Positions 2,645 to 59,234 of a DNA stretch of 64,000 nucleotides are shown here, piece by piece. The first letter of the stretch is position 1; each line of letters opens with the position of its first letter. A program made the translations under genes and the position numbers. Origin of the DNA: a virus; IMG/VR virus record IMGVR_UViG_3300041411_000085, positions 23,004-87,003 of that record; one strand, given 5' to 3'. The notes beneath the pieces were generated by a model that did not search any database, had not been told where the DNA came from, and saw only the letters and a list, made by a program, of their open reading frames with translations.

Positions 2645-3031
2645 ATGTTAATTGAATATGCTAGAATACTCTCACCCCCAATGTGCAGAAGATATCCAGA
2701 TAAGATATACGTCTACGGTGACAACATGAAAGCCTTCGGTAAAGGTGGACAAGCTATCATCCGTGATGAGCCTAATGCTTTTGGTATTCCAACTAAACGA
2801 TATCCCTCTTGGGATGATTGGGCATTCTTTAGTGACCAACCAGATGAAATTGAAGCTGTAAAGATATCCCTACGTGAATTGTGGAAGGTTGCACGAAACA
2901 AAGTGATTGTATTCCCTGAAGATGGGATCGGTACAGGGAGAGCTAAGATGAAAGAGAAATCTCCTGTTGCTTATAAGATGATGTGTGATATATTGCGGGA
3001 ACATTTTGGTATTGTTAATGGAGGAAAATAA
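2645..3031 (+). CDS. Conserved phage protein with GGQA and GIGTGRA motifs
   Basis: 128 aa, starting directly after the hydrolase stop. Strand-like segment KIYVYGDNMKAFGKGGQA (21-38) followed by VIVFPEDGIGTGRA (86-99) gives glycine loops reminiscent of macro-domain or nucleotide-binding folds, possibly the group annotated DUF7831 in phages (recalled, not verified). Function unknown. TAATG-type overlap with the next gene. Confidence 0.7.
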   Translation: MLIEYARILSPPMCRRYPDKIYVYGDNMKAFGKGGQAIIRDEPNAFGIPTKRYPSWDDWAFFSDQPDEIEAVKISLRELWKVARNKVIVFPEDGIGTGRAKMKEKSPVAYKMMCDILREHFGIVNGGK

Positions 3032-3285
3032 TGACAAACCTTGAACGCTGCTCATGTGGAGCTAGGGAGAAAAATAAGTGTAGTAAGGAGAGTGCTCCAA
3101 TGAATGGAGTCCAAAGTGGGAAGATGTGTTTGAAGGATGAAGATACCCTGTTCGTTAACTTTAGAGACACCTTGAATGGTGGTTTCTGTGCTGATATTGA
3201 CTATGAATCACAAGCTTGGCAGAAAGTGCTGGGTGATTGGGAAGGGTTTAAAATTGAGGAGCAGCTATGTATTACCAAGAAGTAG
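3031..3285 (+). CDS. Hypothetical cysteine-containing protein, 84 aa
   Basis: Five cysteines, including CSCGAREKNKC near the N-terminus, suggest a metal site. It overlaps the neighbour on each side (1 base before, 19 bases after). No family recognised. Confidence 0.65.
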   Translation: MTNLERCSCGAREKNKCSKESAPMNGVQSGKMCLKDEDTLFVNFRDTLNGGFCADIDYESQAWQKVLGDWEGFKIEEQLCITKK

Positions 3286-3560
3286 GCTACAAACTACCAC
3301 CAGAATACACAAGCCTTATCTACCTGCACCAGCGTCTAGGTGATATCGATACTGTGGATGCCGCTTGTTATATCTGGAATAGGTTGCACACAGGCGACAC
3401 TCTTCGTATTAATAAAGTTGAAGAAATGCTAGGCACAATTCATCTGACAGGGAAGTGTAGTGACACGGAGGCTGCTTTGAACATTTGCAGATACCTCACG
3501 ACTATCTGTGTTGGTGTTACGTACCAGAAGACAATTATCACTGAGAGTTGGGAGATTTGA
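3267..3560 (+). CDS. Hypothetical protein, 97 aa
   Basis: Starts inside the end of the previous gene, with GAGGAG just upstream of its ATG. Mixed helical protein with cysteines spread through the chain; no known motif. Stop and next start share one base (TGATG). Confidence 0.65.
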   Translation: MYYQEVGYKLPPEYTSLIYLHQRLGDIDTVDAACYIWNRLHTGDTLRINKVEEMLGTIHLTGKCSDTEAALNICRYLTTICVGVTYQKTIITESWEI

Positions 3561-3805
3561 TGAAATATAAAATGGGTAATAAAGTCTACATCGCTTCCTC
3601 TAAGAAGACAGATGGGACACATAACAGAGGTAAGATCGTAGGTATTGAGCTTTCTTACTTTGGACTTGGGTATCTTACAGAAACTCAGTATTTTAATGAC
3701 TTTGATCATCCAAGATATAAAGTTGCCTATGTTGATTGCTTCACAAATAAAGCTAACTGTCATTGGTACTCGGAGGAAGAGCTTCAGAAGGAGAAACCTG
3801 AATGA
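3560..3805 (+). CDS. Hypothetical protein, probable SH3-like small barrel, 81 aa
   Basis: ATG 3560 is chosen over TTG 3548 because GGGAG lies 6 bases upstream and the start overlaps the previous stop. Short beta-rich pattern (MGNKVYIAS, HNRGKIVGIELSY, YKVAYVDCF) like small phage barrel proteins. Function unknown. Confidence 0.65.
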   Translation: MKYKMGNKVYIASSKKTDGTHNRGKIVGIELSYFGLGYLTETQYFNDFDHPRYKVAYVDCFTNKANCHWYSEEELQKEKPE

Positions 3806-3966
3806 ACCAAACAATTGAAGAACGCATGCAGAATATTGATAATGAACTGAAAGCACTTAGGGAAGAACTAAAAGTAGAACTTTTACCTAAATATCTTTCA
3901 CCAGAACATCAAAAGAGAGTGTTAAAAGCGTTTATGAAAGGTATTGATGACAAGGAAGAAGAGTAA
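3802..3966 (+). CDS. Coiled-coil microprotein, 54 aa
   Basis: ATGA overlap at its start and 1-base overlap at its end. The chain is almost all charged helix with heptad-like leucines (IDNELKALREELKVELL), then a basic helix and an acidic tail. No domain recognised. Confidence 0.6.
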   Translation: MNQTIEERMQNIDNELKALREELKVELLPKYLSPEHQKRVLKAFMKGIDDKEEE

Positions 3967-4463
3967 TGACTGAACTCCTCACACACGATAACCTGTGTCT
4001 GTTAGCTGAGAAGTTCTTAACTAAGAATGCATTTGGTGTTGTATTCCATGATAAGTTTAAAGCTTATACAAACACAGGTGAACAACCAGACTGTCTTGGA
4101 TTCAGAAGTGGAGTATCTTGTCTGATTGAGTGTAAAACATCTAGGTCTGATTTCTTAGTAGACAAGCGTAAGAAGTTTAGAGTTGATCCGGCACTTGGTA
4201 TGGGTGATTGGAGATTCTTTCTAACACCTACAGGACTTATTAAAGCTGAGGAGCTTCCTGCTGGATGGGGATTGTTAGAGACTGATGGGAAACGGATTAA
4301 GAAAGTATACGGATTCCCTGCAAACACAGGGTGGTTTGATAAACCATTCACCGGTAATAAACAAGCTGAGTGTGATTATATGTATTCTGCCTGTAGGCGT
4401 ATGGTCATACGAGGACACTTGAAAGAGATTTATGATGGTGTTCCTGTAAAGGAGTTTGTATAA
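3966..4463 (+). CDS. PD-(D/E)XK superfamily nuclease-like protein
   Basis: 165 aa. Asp42 (in QPDCLGF) and Glu55-x-Lys57 (in LIECKTSRSDF) reproduce the D...ExK active site of the restriction-endonuclease-like fold; SRSDF after ExK is typical of the MmcB/DUF-type DNA-repair subgroup. The C-terminal half (WRFFLTPTGLIK) matches the core of such proteins. It could act in phage DNA processing or host DNA degradation. Part of the overlapping accessory operon; 3-base overlap with the next gene. Confidence 0.75.
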   Translation: MTELLTHDNLCLLAEKFLTKNAFGVVFHDKFKAYTNTGEQPDCLGFRSGVSCLIECKTSRSDFLVDKRKKFRVDPALGMGDWRFFLTPTGLIKAEELPAGWGLLETDGKRIKKVYGFPANTGWFDKPFTGNKQAECDYMYSACRRMVIRGHLKEIYDGVPVKEFV

Positions 4464-5039: not shown

Positions 5040-5562
5040 AGAGGAGCTACAAGCCTTAGAGCAAAGGATTGCTCAGAATGCCAATAAACTGGTGAGTTCT
5101 GCTAAGAAGGTGGAAAGGAAAGACACAAAAGACACAAGAGGTCGTAAACCAAAGCAATTGCACAATAAGCTGCTTCCTGTATTTCAGGACTTGCGGCTTG
5201 AGTTGTTTGAGGATGACGGCAACTCTTGGCCTTTGTGGATTGATGATGTGTTGTCTGGGGTTAGTAGGCTTGATTGGTATAGACAAGGAGAACGAAGTGT
5301 CCCATTGAGTACAGGAAGTCTTAAGAGTATCTTTGAAAGCCTTGAATATATTGACTCTGTATCTATTGCTGACCTACTCTCCCTTGGAGAAAGGCAAGCT
5401 CGTAGGTATATGCAAGCCTCAATCCTCTGTTATAAATACCTTGACACTGGCTATAAAGATGTTAATATTAAAGGTCTGAAATATCCTGCACATCGCCCCG
5501 GTGTTGATAAACTAGTTATTGCTGATTTAGAACGATTAGAGCAATTATTAACTAATAAATAG
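5029..5562 (+). CDS. Putative DNA-binding protein, 177 aa
   Basis: A basic linker with an AT-hook-like RGRKP (about 37-41) precedes a helical domain; SIADLLSLGERQARRYM (about 112-128) looks like a helix-turn-helix. A regulator role is an inference from these two features. GAGGAG-type ribosome sites surround it, and it closes the overlapping run before the homing endonuclease. Confidence 0.6.
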   Translation: MLTKEELQALEQRIAQNANKLVSSAKKVERKDTKDTRGRKPKQLHNKLLPVFQDLRLELFEDDGNSWPLWIDDVLSGVSRLDWYRQGERSVPLSTGSLKSIFESLEYIDSVSIADLLSLGERQARRYMQASILCYKYLDTGYKDVNIKGLKYPAHRPGVDKLVIADLERLEQLLTNK

Positions 5563-5642: not shown

Positions 5643-6749
5643 ATGGAAGAAGAGTGGAAAGAGATACCCGGTTATCCGGGGTATGAAGCTAGCGATAAAG
5701 GTAATGTAAGACAGTTATCTGGTAAACAAGTGTTCCTCCAGATAACAGGTGAGCCTGAATACCACTATGTAAACATTGTAGATGAGTATGGTAACAGAGT
5801 CCTAAGACGTGCTCATGTCATGGTTGCGAAAGCCTTTCTTGAGAATCCATTGAACCTACCAATGGTTGACCATATTGACAGACAGAGGTTTAATAACAAC
5901 CTTGAAAATCTCCGGTGGGTAACTCGTAAAGATAATGCTAGAAATAAAGTTAATACACTCTTTACTGAATATCAAGGAAAACAAAGGGTCTTGGTTGAGC
6001 TTGTAGAGGAAATATTTGAAGATGATTATCTTGCACCATACCAAGCAATCAGGTACAGAGTATCAACTGGTATGGATTTTGATGCTGCCTTGGCATCTTA
6101 TCTGTACCTTCTAGAGCACGGAAGGTGTAAGATTAAAGTGGACTGGAATAACGAAGAAGTATTCCTCACAGTTCTTTGTAAGGACTTGAGTAAAGATTTC
6201 TTTTATGTGAGACAGAGACTTAGAGATGGTTGGTCTATTTGGAATGCTATTTACGATATTCCACACTCCCACAGTTACAGCTTCGAGGTTATTGACTCAA
6301 AAGGTGTTGGCCACTGGTATCAGAATAATGAAATGTTTGAAAAGACACACCCAACTGCAATTGGAATCTGGAAGTCCTTGTTTAGAGAAGGTAAGACATT
6401 AGATGAAATATTAGCATATGATGGTAAAGACTATTTAAGACGAACTGTAGGTAAGCACACAGGAACTTTAAAAGAGCTGTGTAAGCTTTATGGGAAGACA
6501 GAATCCTCAGTAGAAACTAGAGTAGGCAAAGGCATGTCTTTAGAGGATGCTTTAACCTCCCCTCCTGAAAGGATCAAGAAAGTCACTATTGATGGTGTAT
6601 CAGGGAGCCCTAAATATTGGTATGAGCATTACGGGCTTGTTTACAAGACTGTGAAACATAAGAAAGATAGGTTGAAGTGTTCCTTTGAGGATATCTTGAG
6701 ATACTTTGATGTAGATTTAACTGGTAAAGTTATTTCGTACACAGACTAA
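5643..6749 (+). CDS. HNH homing endonuclease with NUMOD4 domain
   Basis: 368 aa. N-terminal NUMOD4 motif (EEWKEIPGYPGYEASDKGNV, 4-23) is followed by an HNH domain: His near 59, DHIDR at 76-80, NNLENLRWVTRKDNAR to about 100. The remaining 260 residues hold about five helical repeats of similar pattern (near 131-152, 179-204, 228-257, 277-305, 328-354) that look like tandem DNA-binding helix-turn-helix modules. Free-standing homing endonucleases cut homologous sites to spread their gene. GTAGGAG precedes the start, and a strong terminator follows. It is last in the rightward block, a typical insertion place. Confidence 0.88.
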   Translation: MEEEWKEIPGYPGYEASDKGNVRQLSGKQVFLQITGEPEYHYVNIVDEYGNRVLRRAHVMVAKAFLENPLNLPMVDHIDRQRFNNNLENLRWVTRKDNARNKVNTLFTEYQGKQRVLVELVEEIFEDDYLAPYQAIRYRVSTGMDFDAALASYLYLLEHGRCKIKVDWNNEEVFLTVLCKDLSKDFFYVRQRLRDGWSIWNAIYDIPHSHSYSFEVIDSKGVGHWYQNNEMFEKTHPTAIGIWKSLFREGKTLDEILAYDGKDYLRRTVGKHTGTLKELCKLYGKTESSVETRVGKGMSLEDALTSPPERIKKVTIDGVSGSPKYWYEHYGLVYKTVKHKKDRLKCSFEDILRYFDVDLTGKVISYTD

Positions 6750-26046: not shown

Positions 26047-26101
26047 CATCTTGAAGCAATTTGATTAATACTCTTTGCAGGGTGTTGGAGGGGAGAAGAG
26101 C

Positions 26102-27856
26102 GTGAGTAAACAAGAGCGACCGGACGGAGAATTGTTGTACCATGCGTCCTGTATTGGAGATGACTGTTCGTCGTCAGATGGTATGGCTGTGTATCAGAAA
26201 GAAATTGATGGAAAGCATATTAACGATGCCTTCTGTTTCGTTTGCACAAATTATTTCAACCACGACCAACTTGAAGAGGTTGGTATTAAGATTAAAGAGG
26301 GGAAACATAAAGTGTCCGAAGTAGTGGATTTTACAAACATTCAAGCAATTCCATTTCGTGGTTGGAAAGAACGCGGTATTGGTCAACCCGTATCCACAAA
26401 GTATGGCGTGCACACAGAAGTTGAAAACAGCTTTGATGTGACAGCTCGTTATTACCCATCTACATCAGATGGTAAGATCGTAGGCTTTAAGAAACGTTTG
26501 AATCCTAAAGACTTCGTTGGGATTGGTAGCACTAAGGCAACTAATGAACTCTTTGGTCAGTCTGTCTTTGAAGCCGGTCAAAAGTATTTGGTAATCACCA
26601 CGGGAGAGGAAGATGCTTTGGCATTTGCCCAAGCTCTATATTCCAAAAAAGATGGAGTGGAATACTGGACACCGTGTGTTAGTGTGACTTGTGGTGATGG
26701 TAGTATTATCAAACAATTCAAGGCTAACTTTGAATATATCAACAGTTTTTCTAAGGTCATCCTGTCGTTTGATCAAGATGAATCAGCACAGAAATATGTA
26801 GAAGAGGCAGCACGTCTCCTTACTCCGGGTAAGGCGTTCATTGCAAAGCTCCCACAAGGGGTTAAAGATGCCTCGGATATGGTTAAATCTGGTCGTACAG
26901 CAGAGCTTAAACAACTCTTCTGGAAAGCCACTCCGTTCAGTCGGGTTGACGTTCTACACTTGAGTCAAATGTGGGATGACTTTGAAAGTGAAGACAATAA
27001 CGTAAAGATTCCATTTCCTTCATCTTGGGCGCACTTGAATGAAATGATGAATGGGGGTATGGAAAAGGGTGAAATTACAATCATCGGTGCATTGACATCT
27101 ATTGGTAAGAGTTCGATTGTAAACAACGTGGTATATTCGCTGATTGAGAATACACCGTTCAAAGTAGGTGCAATGTATCTGGAAGGCACCAAGCGTGAAG
27201 TTGTGCGTGACCTGTTGTCGCTTGATGCTGGTATGAACCTCCGGACAGTCAATCGTGAGAACGTAGATATTGAAGCTCTGAAGAATCGTTTCTTTGAGAA
27301 CCTTGCGAAGAAAGATCAATTCGTTTATGTTGACCATCAGGGTAGTATCTCAACCGCTGAGATTTTTGATAAACTTAATTATCTGGCGAAGGCTGAGAAC
27401 TGTGATGTAATTGTTATCGATCCTGTTCAAGCGGGTGTAAACAGTAGTGATAACGGTGCAATCATTGAGTTTATGGATACATTGTTGAAGTTCGCAAAGG
27501 AGACAGATACTTGTGTGGTTGCAATTAGTCACATGAGAAAGCCTTCTGAAGAAAACCCACACGCTGTAACCGAATACCAATTAATGGGTTCCAGTTCTTT
27601 AAATCAAATTGCATTCAATACAATTTTGATCAGCCGTGATAAGATGAACCCTTGTCCAATTAAAAAGTCAGCCACTAAGTTGCAATTGGTTAAATGTCGT
27701 CGGACTGGTAACACTGGTGATGCTGGATGGTTGCGATATGATGGAGCCACAACACATATGTTTGCGACATCTGATCCATATATTGAAGAAAGCCTAATGG
27801 ATGAGCCACCATCGGTAGAAACTCTAGAAATTCCAGCACATATGGTTGACTTTTAA
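26102..27856 (+). CDS. Primase-helicase, T7 gp4-like
   Basis: 584 aa from GTG 26102, which has GGGGAG 6 bases upstream. Order of domains: N-terminal Cys4 zinc site (C17, C22, C45, C48), RNA-polymerase/TOPRIM core (ITTGEEDALAF about 164-175, ILSFDQDES about 218), then a DnaB/RecA-like helicase with Walker A GALTSIGKSS (329-338) and Walker B VIVIDP (about 430-440). It unwinds the fork and makes primers, presumably for the polymerase 45 bases downstream. Length and layout match full-length gp4-type proteins. Confidence 0.93.
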   Translation: MSKQERPDGELLYHASCIGDDCSSSDGMAVYQKEIDGKHINDAFCFVCTNYFNHDQLEEVGIKIKEGKHKVSEVVDFTNIQAIPFRGWKERGIGQPVSTKYGVHTEVENSFDVTARYYPSTSDGKIVGFKKRLNPKDFVGIGSTKATNELFGQSVFEAGQKYLVITTGEEDALAFAQALYSKKDGVEYWTPCVSVTCGDGSIIKQFKANFEYINSFSKVILSFDQDESAQKYVEEAARLLTPGKAFIAKLPQGVKDASDMVKSGRTAELKQLFWKATPFSRVDVLHLSQMWDDFESEDNNVKIPFPSSWAHLNEMMNGGMEKGEITIIGALTSIGKSSIVNNVVYSLIENTPFKVGAMYLEGTKREVVRDLLSLDAGMNLRTVNRENVDIEALKNRFFENLAKKDQFVYVDHQGSISTAEIFDKLNYLAKAENCDVIVIDPVQAGVNSSDNGAIIEFMDTLLKFAKETDTCVVAISHMRKPSEENPHAVTEYQLMGSSSLNQIAFNTILISRDKMNPCPIKKSATKLQLVKCRRTGNTGDAGWLRYDGATTHMFATSDPYIEESLMDEPPSVETLEIPAHMVDF

Positions 27857-27901: not shown

Positions 27902-29614
27902 TTGGAAAAGAAATGGTTCAAAACTGACTTCATTTGGGACTTGGAAACTTTTCCAAACTGTTTTACCGCATGCTTTGTTTATGCTAATGGTCAAGGGATA
28001 CGTGTATTTGAAATCAGTGATCGAAAGGATGAGACTGAGGGGTTATTGGAGTTTTTAAGGAAGGTGAGAGCGGGTAACTATCGATTGGTAGGATTCAACT
28101 CCAATGCATTTGATTACCCTATTCTCCACCACATTCTGACAAAGGCACGTAAAGCCTTTACAGAAGGAAAGAAAGCAAAGTTTACAGCAAAGGAACTGTA
28201 TAAGGTTGCTATGGATCTTATTAATTCCATGAAAGATGAGAAGTTTGGGTCTTCGATTAAGGAGAAGGATGTAATCATCCCTCAAGTTGATCTATTCAAG
28301 GTTCACCACTTTGACAATAAAAATAGGTCAACCTCTCTAAAAATGTTGGAATATAACATGAGGTCAACTAACATTGAGGATTTACCGTTTCCTGTAGGTA
28401 CAGTGTTAACACACGTAGAAAAAGATGTATTAGTAAAATACAACAAACACGATGTCATGGAGACGCTTAAGTTCTATTGGTATTCATACGAAAACTTAAA
28501 ACTGAGGGAAGACTTGACTAAACAGTTTGGTTTTGACTGTACTAATTTCAACGATACGAAGATCGGCAAAGAACTGTTTATTCGAACACTGGAGAAAGAA
28601 AAACCGGGCTGCTGTTACGAGATTACTAAGTTTGGTCGTAAAGTTCGTCAAACCAAACGAGATCAAATTGTAATCAAAGACTGTCTTTTTCCTTACATTA
28701 AATTTGATAGACCAGAGTTTAAAGCTGTACATGAATGGTTCAAAACTCAAGTAATCACTGAAACAAAAGGTGTTTTTAGCGATCTACTGGAGCACCAGTT
28801 GGGTGATGTGGCTAAATATGCTGAGATGGTTGTTAAACGAAAGAAGCTTGGTAACGCTAACGACTGCGCTAAGTATGGATTTGATGACTTCAAAGGAACA
28901 AGAAGTAAAACATTTGTACCTACTGAAAAGCAGTTAAGTGAACTTAAACTATCACAGCCTATGGGTTGGGTTGAGGAGAAAGAACTTAAGAGCCCTAAAG
29001 GAGCTAAAAGCTATTACTGGTGTTGGAACGTAGCAGAAACCCTCAACGTGGTAATTAACGGGTTTCGTTATGACTACGGTGTAGGAGGTATTCACGGGGC
29101 TAAACAAGGGACCATTCGGAGTACGGATAAGAGAAAGATTCGTTCGTTGGACGTAAAATCTTTTTATCCAAACATGGGGATTGCAAATCAGATATACCCT
29201 CAACATCTGGGTACAACGTTTTGCAATGTTAACTCATCGTTGTATGCTGAGCGGGCAAAGACCGCTAAAGGTTCCGCTGGTAATGCTGCATTGAAACTTG
29301 CTTTGAATGGTTCGTACGGGGAAACTAACAACGAGTTTAGCCCACTCTTTGATCCGGCTTACACCATGAGTATTACTATCGGCGGCCAGCTCTCACTTTG
29401 TATGTTGATGGAGAAACTGATTGATCATTGTGATGCACAAATCGTAATGTGTAATACTGACGGATTTGAATATATGATTGATGTAGATAAGATTGGTGTG
29501 GATGACCAATGGGTTAAATGGTGGGAAAAAGAAACTAAGCTTGAAATGGAAGGGTTAAACTATTCGACTATGTTCATACGGGATGTAAATTCTTACTGCG
29601 CCGTGAAGGAGTGA
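27902..29614 (+). CDS. Family B DNA polymerase, N-terminal part (exonuclease and palm)
   Basis: 570 aa from TTG 27902, with GGAG 8 bases upstream. Exo motif I DLET (13-16) and exo II region GFNSNAFDYP (about 64-73) form the proofreading domain. Motif A SLDVKSFYP (Asp417), motif B KLALNGSYG (465-473) and motif C NTDG (518-521) complete the palm. The frame stops right after VNSYCAVKE, where related polymerases continue with the thumb. The missing part is the separate frame at 30264-30761, so this gene is split by the GIY-YIG gene at 29618. Both halves probably assemble into one enzyme. Confidence 0.92.
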   Translation: MEKKWFKTDFIWDLETFPNCFTACFVYANGQGIRVFEISDRKDETEGLLEFLRKVRAGNYRLVGFNSNAFDYPILHHILTKARKAFTEGKKAKFTAKELYKVAMDLINSMKDEKFGSSIKEKDVIIPQVDLFKVHHFDNKNRSTSLKMLEYNMRSTNIEDLPFPVGTVLTHVEKDVLVKYNKHDVMETLKFYWYSYENLKLREDLTKQFGFDCTNFNDTKIGKELFIRTLEKEKPGCCYEITKFGRKVRQTKRDQIVIKDCLFPYIKFDRPEFKAVHEWFKTQVITETKGVFSDLLEHQLGDVAKYAEMVVKRKKLGNANDCAKYGFDDFKGTRSKTFVPTEKQLSELKLSQPMGWVEEKELKSPKGAKSYYWCWNVAETLNVVINGFRYDYGVGGIHGAKQGTIRSTDKRKIRSLDVKSFYPNMGIANQIYPQHLGTTFCNVNSSLYAERAKTAKGSAGNAALKLALNGSYGETNNEFSPLFDPAYTMSITIGGQLSLCMLMEKLIDHCDAQIVMCNTDGFEYMIDVDKIGVDDQWVKWWEKETKLEMEGLNYSTMFIRDVNSYCAVKE

Positions 29615-29617
29615 TTT

Positions 29618-30277
29618 TTGGATTTAATAGATTTTAAATTTTTAGGATGTGGAGGTATTTATAAGATAACCAACACAATTAATAGCAAGTGTTATATAGG
29701 CCGAACCAAATGTTTTTATAGAAGGTGTTCTGAGTATAGAGGAGCCTACAGAAATAAAAACATAGGAAAAATCAATGAATATATGCTCAACTCTATGTTG
29801 AAGCATGGGATCGAATCTTTCACTTTTCGAATAATTGAGATGTGTGAGTATGAAGACATGTTTGAAAGAGAAAATTTTTGGATGGATTATTTTAATAGTC
29901 ATGACAAATCATTAGGATATAATCTCAGGAAAGATTCTTTGGGTGGTGGTATGGAAACACATCCGAGTACATCTAAGAAGATAACGGAACGACTTAAGAA
30001 AGAATGGTCTGAAGGTACAAGAGATGGTCATTCAGACAAGCTGAAAGCTTCTTGGGAATTCAGAGACAGAGATGCACAAGCCGATCTGATGTCAAAGAAC
30101 TTGACAAAGTGGAAGTATCTGGTATCTTTGGATGGGATCACTGAAGATCTGCTATATAAAGATTTAGCTGAGCTTGGTCTTAAGAACTGCGTCAGTACTT
30201 TCTTCCAAAAGAAGAGTGATGTTGTTCAGTTCAAAGGGTATACTATTGAGAGGATCAGATTGGATGATGTCGCATGA
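29618..30277 (+). CDS. GIY-YIG homing endonuclease inside the polymerase gene
   Basis: 219 aa from TTG 29618; its AAGGAG is the last codons of the polymerase N-part. GGIYKITNTINSKCYIGRTK (12-31) is the GIY-YIG core; the conserved Arg and Glu lie in YRRCSEYRG and MFERENFW. The C-terminal half carries NUMOD-like DNA-binding segments. Only about 5 bases before and none after it are non-coding, too little for a self-splicing intron, so it looks free-standing. It overlaps the polymerase C-part by 14 bases. Confidence 0.9.
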   Translation: MDLIDFKFLGCGGIYKITNTINSKCYIGRTKCFYRRCSEYRGAYRNKNIGKINEYMLNSMLKHGIESFTFRIIEMCEYEDMFERENFWMDYFNSHDKSLGYNLRKDSLGGGMETHPSTSKKITERLKKEWSEGTRDGHSDKLKASWEFRDRDAQADLMSKNLTKWKYLVSLDGITEDLLYKDLAELGLKNCVSTFFQKKSDVVQFKGYTIERIRLDDVA

Positions 30278-30761
30278 GGAAGAAGTTTCAGTAATTCAAA
30301 GCCTGATCAAAGACGGTAAGGTCAAGACTAAAGGTGCTTATGAAGTGATGCCTTTTGACAAGATTGGTTGGAATAAAAACCAATCAGCAATGGTTGTACC
30401 AATGGCTGCACTTTATCACCTTTTGGATATGGGTGATTACGAGGATTTTATTCGGTTACATAAAGATAAATATGACTTTCTTTTGAGGACAAAAGTCCCG
30501 AGAAGTAGTAAGCTGTTGCTCGTTACCCAAGATGGTGAAGAAATACAGCTTCAGAACATTTGTCGCTATTATCCCTCGAAAGAAGGTGGTAAACTGATTA
30601 AGGTGATGCCTCCATTGGTTGAAGGTGGTGAGTGGCGACGATTAGGTATTGACACCAGTTGGGATGTGAAACCATGTAACGACATCAAGGACTTTTCTTG
30701 GGATTTGGACTACAGATATTTTGTCCAAGAAGCAAAGGCTTTGATTGATTCTGTAAGCTGA
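30264..30761 (+). CDS. Family B DNA polymerase, C-terminal (thumb) part
   Basis: 165 aa. The segment DGKVKTKGAYEVMPF (19-33) is what normally follows the SYCAV strand of phage family B polymerases, and WNKNQSAMVV and LLRTKVPRSSKLLL match the thumb region. About 18 extra residues (MMSHEEEVSVIQSLIK) precede it, apparently acquired on splitting. ATG 30264 or 30267 is used, with GAGAGG about 10 bases upstream. With 27902-29614 it would make a polymerase of normal length. Confidence 0.88.
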   Translation: MMSHEEEVSVIQSLIKDGKVKTKGAYEVMPFDKIGWNKNQSAMVVPMAALYHLLDMGDYEDFIRLHKDKYDFLLRTKVPRSSKLLLVTQDGEEIQLQNICRYYPSKEGGKLIKVMPPLVEGGEWRRLGIDTSWDVKPCNDIKDFSWDLDYRYFVQEAKALIDSVS

Positions 30762-58421: not shown

Positions 58422-59234
58422 TTAAACCTCTATATTTTCATTAATTTTATAAGAAAATCTAGGGTCTTTATTTTTAAGTCCTCTAGATATTGTGCATGCC
58501 GAATAATTTGAAAACTCTCCGGCCAGTTTAAGTGAATCATAAAGCATATCATCTACATAAACAGCTTTTGAATTTGGACAAAGAGCACCTGTTTTCCCCG
58601 TTGTTGGGTGATCTAAACCGCAGGTTTCAGGTTTGCCCTGTTGTTCAATAAAACCGTCATATATTCTTTTTCTTAGTGCAGGTATTGTCTTATTTAATAT
58701 TTCAGAGGCAGTTTTAAAATTATCAAACCAAAAACCTGCAATATAAACAGGTTTATCAATTAAATACTTAACCTTACTCTTACTAATATAATCCCCAGCT
58801 CGACCTTCCCTGATCATTGCGTAAAGTCCGCCTTTGGATATTGAAACATATCTTAGGCAAGTTCTAGCATTTGGAAACCAAAACCCCATTACATATAAAG
58901 GAGTATCGTCACTTCTGCTTGCAACCTTATGGCCGGAACCGCCCTCACCACCTGAGCGTATGTTGTAACCATTATTTATAGAGTCATAAGCTATAATAGC
59001 TTTCTTTTCTAGTTCAATAATATACTCACGAGATCCTTCACAAAGAACTATCAGTTCAAAGTTTTCAGGGTCGTGTTTATCAATAGCCAATTGTATAATA
59101 GAAATAGTCTTCTTGGATCTATGTTTGTAGTGCTGATACTTTCGCTTTTCAACATCCCCAGTCATTCCAATGTAAACTTTATCATTAACACTATTTACAA
59201 TTTTATAAAGATAGTAAGATTTAACAGAATTCAT
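58422..59234 (-). CDS. GIY-YIG homing endonuclease
   Basis: 270 aa. YYLYKIVNSVNDKVYIGMTG (7-26) is the GIY-YIG core; the catalytic Arg lies in KRKYQHYKH and Glu in IIELEKKAI. The C-terminal half has repeated NUMOD/IENR-like helices (for example FKTASEILNKTIPALRKRIY). It sits directly between sheath and tube genes, which are otherwise adjacent. Its AGGAGG is paired in an inverted repeat. Confidence 0.88.
   Translation of the reverse strand: MNSVKSYYLYKIVNSVNDKVYIGMTGDVEKRKYQHYKHRSKKTISIIQLAIDKHDPENFELIVLCEGSREYIIELEKKAIIAYDSINNGYNIRSGGEGGSGHKVASRSDDTPLYVMGFWFPNARTCLRYVSISKGGLYAMIREGRAGDYISKSKVKYLIDKPVYIAGFWFDNFKTASEILNKTIPALRKRIYDGFIEQQGKPETCGLDHPTTGKTGALCPNSKAVYVDDMLYDSLKLAGEFSNYSACTISRGLKNKDPRFSYKINENIEV

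Follow-up and report, generated by a model that had tools for sequence, protein, structure and literature searches.

The stretch of DNA analysed here, hereafter the window, comprises 64,000 nucleotides of an 87,003-base virus record, and the phage it belongs to is known only as an uncultivated-virus contig. Downstream of a DnaB-like primase-helicase gene, the window holds a run of three genes in which the two halves of a family B DNA polymerase gene (polB) flank a homing endonuclease gene. The features of this locus are as follows:

26075-27856: DnaB-like primase-helicase gene, upstream of the polymerase N-half
27902-29614 (+): polB N-half, 570 aa, TTG start; 3'-5' exonuclease, palm and fingers, up to the first strand of the palm/thumb hairpin
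29606-29611 (+): Shine-Dalgarno-like AAGGAG, identical with the last two N-half codons (Lys-Glu), 6 nt before the nuclease start
29618-30277 (+): free-standing GIY-YIG homing endonuclease gene, 219 aa, TTG start
30249-30254 (+): Shine-Dalgarno-like AGAGGA, ahead of the C-half and within the nuclease gene
30264-30761 (+): polB C-half, ATG at 30264 or 30267, 164-165 aa; second strand of the hairpin and thumb
30267-30314 (+): N-terminal extension of the C-half, MSHEEEVSVIQSLIKD, 16 residues, predicted helix

A preliminary description, made from the DNA letters alone, had proposed a family B polymerase gene cut in two with a GIY-YIG gene in between, and this layout is confirmed by the open reading frames and by Pfam and PHROG matches. 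The N-half contains the exonuclease and palm motifs DLETFP, NSNAFDYP, LDVKSFYPN, KLALNGSYG, and CNTDGFE and ends in ...DVNSYCAVKE*, whereas the C-half is read in a frame that differs from those of the N-half and the nuclease, so that the motifs up to VNSYCAVKE and the subsequent change of frame are likewise as first described. The assignment to family B is based on the exonuclease motif, palm motifs A and C, and a profile match to archaeal PolB (E=3e-10), and the fold agrees, as a model of an unsplit relative compared with PolB structures matches 9N polymerase with E=9e-15. Since the DNA polymerase profile phrog_1252 covers the N-half as far as model position 508 and resumes in the C-half at that same position, the halves abut and nothing is missing between them. 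The middle gene is a GIY-YIG homing endonuclease according to both Pfam (PF01541, E=6e-8, above the cut-off) and PHROG (homing endonuclease, E=1e-27), and its product is 63% and 47% identical to the same-site nucleases of locus L015 and Acinetobacter phage phiAB441, respectively. The spacers were given as about 5 bases before the nuclease gene and none after it; there are in fact 3 (TTT) before it, and indeed none after, as the nuclease gene and the start of the C-half share 11-14 bases. Of the two candidate starts of the C-half, the ATG at 30267 is the one that matches relatives. Elsewhere in the window, a second GIY-YIG gene (58422-59234, -, PF01541 E=1.4e-8) lies between tail-type structural genes and a NUMOD4 plus HNH_3 homing endonuclease gene is found at 5643-6749 (+), so that the phage has at least three homing-type nucleases.

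The AAGGAG motif agrees with the proposal that the end of the N-half doubles as the ribosome site of the endonuclease. Such a Shine-Dalgarno-like motif is present in the last N-half codons of nine of the ten first-collected split loci (read by eye), compared to one of 76 unsplit loci. Together with the short overlaps, these sequence motifs suggest translational coupling. An RNA hairpin of the Aeh1 mobE type, hiding the ribosome site of the nuclease or the C-half, was sought, and the folding was no better than that of shuffled sequences.

Unsplit relatives were sought among phages and viral contigs, and both halves were found in one open frame across the split point at 114 loci, corresponding to ~96 distinct contigs or phages when contigs fetched twice are counted once. 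It follows that the split layout is not due to chance. The N-halves of the nearest unsplit relatives are 73-79% identical to that of the window, and an example of the uninterrupted sequence is DVNNYISVTESGKVKLKGAYEF. When an unsplit relative was modelled with AlphaFold2 (45 sequences, pLDDT 90), the split fell in a four-residue turn between strands 553-558 and 563-566, and alignment to an archaeal polymerase places it at KKKYAVIDEE|GKITTRG. As modelled, the split site is the tip of a single β-hairpin at the palm/thumb boundary, after motif C, and it is plausible that this turn is a place where an interruption could be tolerated. No relatives of the C-half were found in bacterial and archaeal genomes, and a fold search using the C-half alone gave no match.

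The window is one of 15 phages and contigs with a polymerase split at this same β-turn. The slot between the halves contains a GIY-YIG gene in ten of them, one with an internal stop, an HNH gene in four, and no endonuclease in one:

GIY-YIG in the slot: the window, L015, L147, L148, L157, L174, L229, Acinetobacter phage phiAB441, Klebsiella phages KpTRp1 and KpTDp1
HNH in the slot: L095, L112, Klebsiella phages RCIP0047 and cmc20193
No endonuclease in the slot: Pseudomonas phage phiPMW, with two unrelated small ORFs instead
Empty site in Jedunavirus: KpV52, RCIP0080, RCIP0113, KpPS2

Relatives thus have this site both filled and empty, as seen among the unsplit polymerases at large and in the alleles of the Klebsiella genus Jedunavirus, which displays all three states (empty, GIY-YIG, and HNH). 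The HNH gene of L095 matches PF13392 and, weakly, AP2, and the Klebsiella HNH genes are 38% identical to it. The internal stop is an in-frame TGA within the GIY-YIG gene of L147, where both polymerase halves are open. Because the slot is occupied by HNH genes in near relatives and is devoid of an endonuclease in phiPMW, the split can be told apart from any particular nuclease, and the GIY-YIG gene, although correctly recognized in the split from the outset, is best regarded as the present occupant of the slot and not necessarily as the maker of the split. The two small ORFs of phiPMW (L001, 3099-3514) are of equal length, and the first has no homologue outside phiPMW in the phage collection. 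In L174, the slot gene (3072-3995) is longer and divergent but GIY-YIG-like (307 aa), which suggests an independent nuclease replacement. In phiAB441 (L006), a frameshift interrupts the N-half between its exonuclease and palm parts (3187-3310), and this copy may be broken, mis-sequenced, or further split.

The C-half was described as having gained about 18 new N-terminal residues; the gain is real, and the count from the ATG at 30267 is 16. The extension MSHEEEVSVIQSLIKD is absent from unsplit homologues and is common to eight split C-halves (the window and seven others) irrespective of what fills the slot, and it looks homologous among the splits of this type. L148 has a shorter extension, and the C-halves of phiAB441, L229, and Jedunavirus have none. 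Constraint on the extension is moderate, with pN/pS of 0.56 against 0.24 in the following codons (synonymous sites being near saturation), and this, together with its absence from the Klebsiella phages, phiAB441, and L229, indicates that it is not essential to being split. It forms a helix in a model of the C-half alone, which leads us to infer that it may help the halves to dock.

The phylogenies point to repeated exchange at this site. In the N-half tree, splits are scattered among unsplit polymerases with 7 changes, and a single split clade is rejected (p=3e-31). The C-half tree, on the other hand, unites the window, L095, L112, and L015 (98/91) despite their two unrelated nucleases. A single origin of all extension-type splits was also considered, and is rejected by the N-halves and, less strongly, by the C-halves (p=0.005). 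For the C-halves of phiPMW and L174, a position apart from their N-half relatives is not significant (p=0.2).

The clearest mosaic is L095, whose N-half DNA is mostly 93-97% identical to that of the unsplit locus L107, while its C-half DNA is only 60-73% identical to L107 but 83-94% identical to that of the split locus L112. The switch in identity occurs within ~60 bases upstream of the insertion, and a tree that puts the L095 C-half among the unsplit sequences is rejected (p=5e-8). Beyond the C-half, similarity to an unsplit locus returns briefly, with 97% identity to L105 over 5065-5144. We read this as the transfer of a ~1.1-kb cassette, consisting of the end of the N-half, the HNH nuclease gene, and the C-half, and take it as evidence from sequence comparison that the cassette moves. 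Within a patch of the L095 N-half (~3234-3500), identity falls to 69-85%, no closer to L107 than to L112, pointing to a history of more than one exchange. A clade of the window, L112, and L095 is not rejected in the N-half tree (p=0.38); it is DNA identity and the C-half tree that support the mosaic. The mosaic in Jedunavirus runs in the reverse direction, as split and unsplit phages are 82-95% identical in DNA from the C-half onward, compared to ~30-50% protein identity in the palm part of the N-half. A homing endonuclease of this kind would be expected to cleave alleles that lack the insertion and to be over-inherited when phages co-infect; the L095 mosaic, whose cassette contains the HNH gene, bears on this only indirectly.

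Were the nuclease gene located within a self-splicing group I intron, the polymerase would be restored in the RNA, and related GIY-YIG nucleases do occupy group I introns ~8 codons upstream in other phage polymerases. The polymerase genes of L228, L230, and L231 are interrupted there, at DV|NNY, by nucleases ~40-45% identical to the GIY-YIG nuclease of L157, and the crAss-like loci L219 and L220 have a more distant GIY-YIG nuclease at the same place. All five intron loci contain the element AAGATATAGTC, and L228 has Rfam RF00028 matches on both sides of its nuclease gene (E=1.4e-9 and 0.009). The polymerase gene of L228 also contains a separate second group I intron near motif A (2917-3288, RF00028 E=2.4e-18). 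In the window, however, the nuclease ORF has only the three bases before it and none after, and the C-halves have start codons of their own. Rfam, run at gathering and relaxed thresholds with L228 as a working positive control, found no group I intron in window positions 29400-30500, even at E-values as high as 5, nor any that reached the gathering score among ten further split loci; it does not detect the crAss-like introns, and its negative is weak by itself. The AAGATATAGTC element, too, is missing from the window and from ten other split loci, and the HNH locus L225 has only a match with one mismatch, at 2122 within the N-half. We therefore consider an intron very improbable, in line with the early judgement that the room is too small for one. 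In a nuclease tree computed without L174, 13 polymerase-associated GIY-YIG nucleases form one clade (99/99), within which the free-standing ones do not form a clade of their own (p=0.02), suggesting, with modest support, that these nucleases have switched between intron-borne and free-standing life.

The halves could also be rejoined at the protein level. In phage MIJ3, PolB is reported to be cut by an HNH gene and to carry a split intein, with protein trans-splicing proposed (PMC6892783), so that an arrangement of this type can have such an origin; here, however, the N-half adds nothing past the polymerase and the C-half only 16 residues, leaving no room for intein blocks of the MIJ3 type, and none of the three proteins matches an intein family, which makes this the least probable of the alternatives. 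Only marginally better placed is the idea that stop-codon readthrough and frameshifting produce the real polymerase, in small quantity, as a three-part fusion. The nuclease of the window is indeed in the frame of the N-half, with only TGA TTT between them, but this relation is not conserved (the nuclease is out of the N-half frame in L015, L095, L112, and phiAB441), the C-half of the window is in yet another frame, and the phiPMW slot contains two unrelated small ORFs. Finally, the polymerase gene might be a decaying remnant in a phage that replicates with another polymerase. Broken genes do occur, as illustrated by the phiAB441 C-half with its frameshifted partner, and decay is perhaps the least remote of these alternatives, yet it remains improbable: the window halves retain 94 of the 96 residues that are invariant in unsplit relatives, the C-half is under strong purifying selection (dN/dS of 0.07-0.09 relative to its relatives), and both halves are open in 13 of the 15 splits, the exceptions being phiAB441 and L229, whose N-half is cut by the contig end. 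Moreover, the same split is carried by sequenced isolates, namely phiPMW and several Klebsiella Jedunavirus phages, so a split polymerase appears to be workable.

The strong selection and these isolates argue for an enzyme of two polypeptides, as the preliminary description had implied, and, considering also the conserved residues, the products of the N-half and the C-half most likely assemble into a two-chain polymerase. In the model of the C-half alone, the first strand is disordered (residues 22-38, pLDDT<50), as expected if the C-half needs the N-half. The role of the split polymerase as the replicative enzyme is suggested by its family and gene context.

Our preferred account, to which we assign a probability of roughly 0.86, is that a free-standing homing endonuclease gene entered an ancestral phage gene for a single-chain family B polymerase at the hairpin tip, resulting in two cistrons whose products would most likely form a two-chain enzyme. 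Translation of the three genes is probably coupled, since the N-half ends in the Shine-Dalgarno-like site of the nuclease, and the nuclease end overlaps the start of the C-half. The nuclease would cut the uninterrupted hairpin sequence, and repair of the break would copy the nuclease gene and flanking polymerase sequence into unsplit rivals. The chains would then assemble into an active enzyme, with the helical extension of the C-half aiding docking. In many related viruses, selfish genes of two unrelated kinds have interrupted the polymerase at this turn, and the enzyme has apparently been retained. More tentatively, and at somewhat less than even odds, the palm/thumb hairpin may be a standing target for selfish genes, invaded repeatedly by two nuclease families and by adjacent group I introns, with a nuclease and one polymerase half acting as a mobile cassette that turns single-chain replicative polymerases into two-subunit ones, and with the C-half of one lineage having evolved a helical docking element after the split.

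On this account, a replicative enzyme that began as a single chain can become multi-subunit through a selfish gene. The case is of interest because two nuclease families have repeatedly used one turn and because of the natural conversion in L095. A single polymerase family includes unoccupied sites, invaders of two kinds, an invader in decay, a nuclease-free split, and a natural conversion from unsplit to split, so that sequenced phages allow direct tests of how new protein subunits arise and of what it costs to split a polymerase.

Our literature search, which mostly covered journals outside subscription, found no paper on a split at the palm/thumb site, but several related systems are known. 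The intron-borne GIY-YIG nucleases of L228, L230, L231, L219, and L220 belong to the same clade as those described here, but there the polymerase can be respliced, whereas it is permanently two genes at the split loci. The OM43 phages MEP401 and MEP402 have a split DNA polymerase with a small inserted ORF, of unknown cause (PMC10580990); by its description, that ORF differs from the nuclease here in lacking known homologues. PolB of Methanothermobacter thermautotrophicus is naturally made of two polypeptides, according to PMC7776575, which cites Kelman et al. 1999. It is likewise a two-polypeptide family B polymerase, but a cellular one. To our knowledge, no endonuclease lies between its genes. 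In phage Aeh1, nrdA is split by mobE and the enzyme still works, as stated in PMC2988022. That case shares with the present one a free-standing homing endonuclease that splits an essential enzyme, but the enzyme is a ribonucleotide reductase and the nuclease is of the HNH type only. The preliminary description noted this likeness, with the difference that the replicative polymerase is affected here; a closer precedent, itself a polymerase, exists in gene 43A/43B with seg43 of Aeromonas phage 25 (PMC2988022). In certain Aeromonas phages, T4-like gene 43 exists as separate 43A and 43B genes, accompanied in phage 25 by seg43 and in 44RR by no more than an untranslated spacer, and gp43A and gp43B are reported to co-purify and be active (Edgell, Gibb and Belfort, PMC2988022). 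The HNH alternative found in the slot here is not mentioned there. Both systems comprise a two-cistron family B replicative polymerase, a GIY-YIG gene (of seg type in phage 25), and a nuclease-free split (in 44RR), but the polymerase is T4-type in one and of phrog_1252 in the other. In 44RR, 43A and 43B meet at RB69 residues 511/519, which we take to lie in the fingers, whereas the split described here is in the palm/thumb hairpin. The gp43A/gp43B system with seg43 is thus the nearest precedent and lowers the novelty of the present case, from which it differs in polymerase family and in site.
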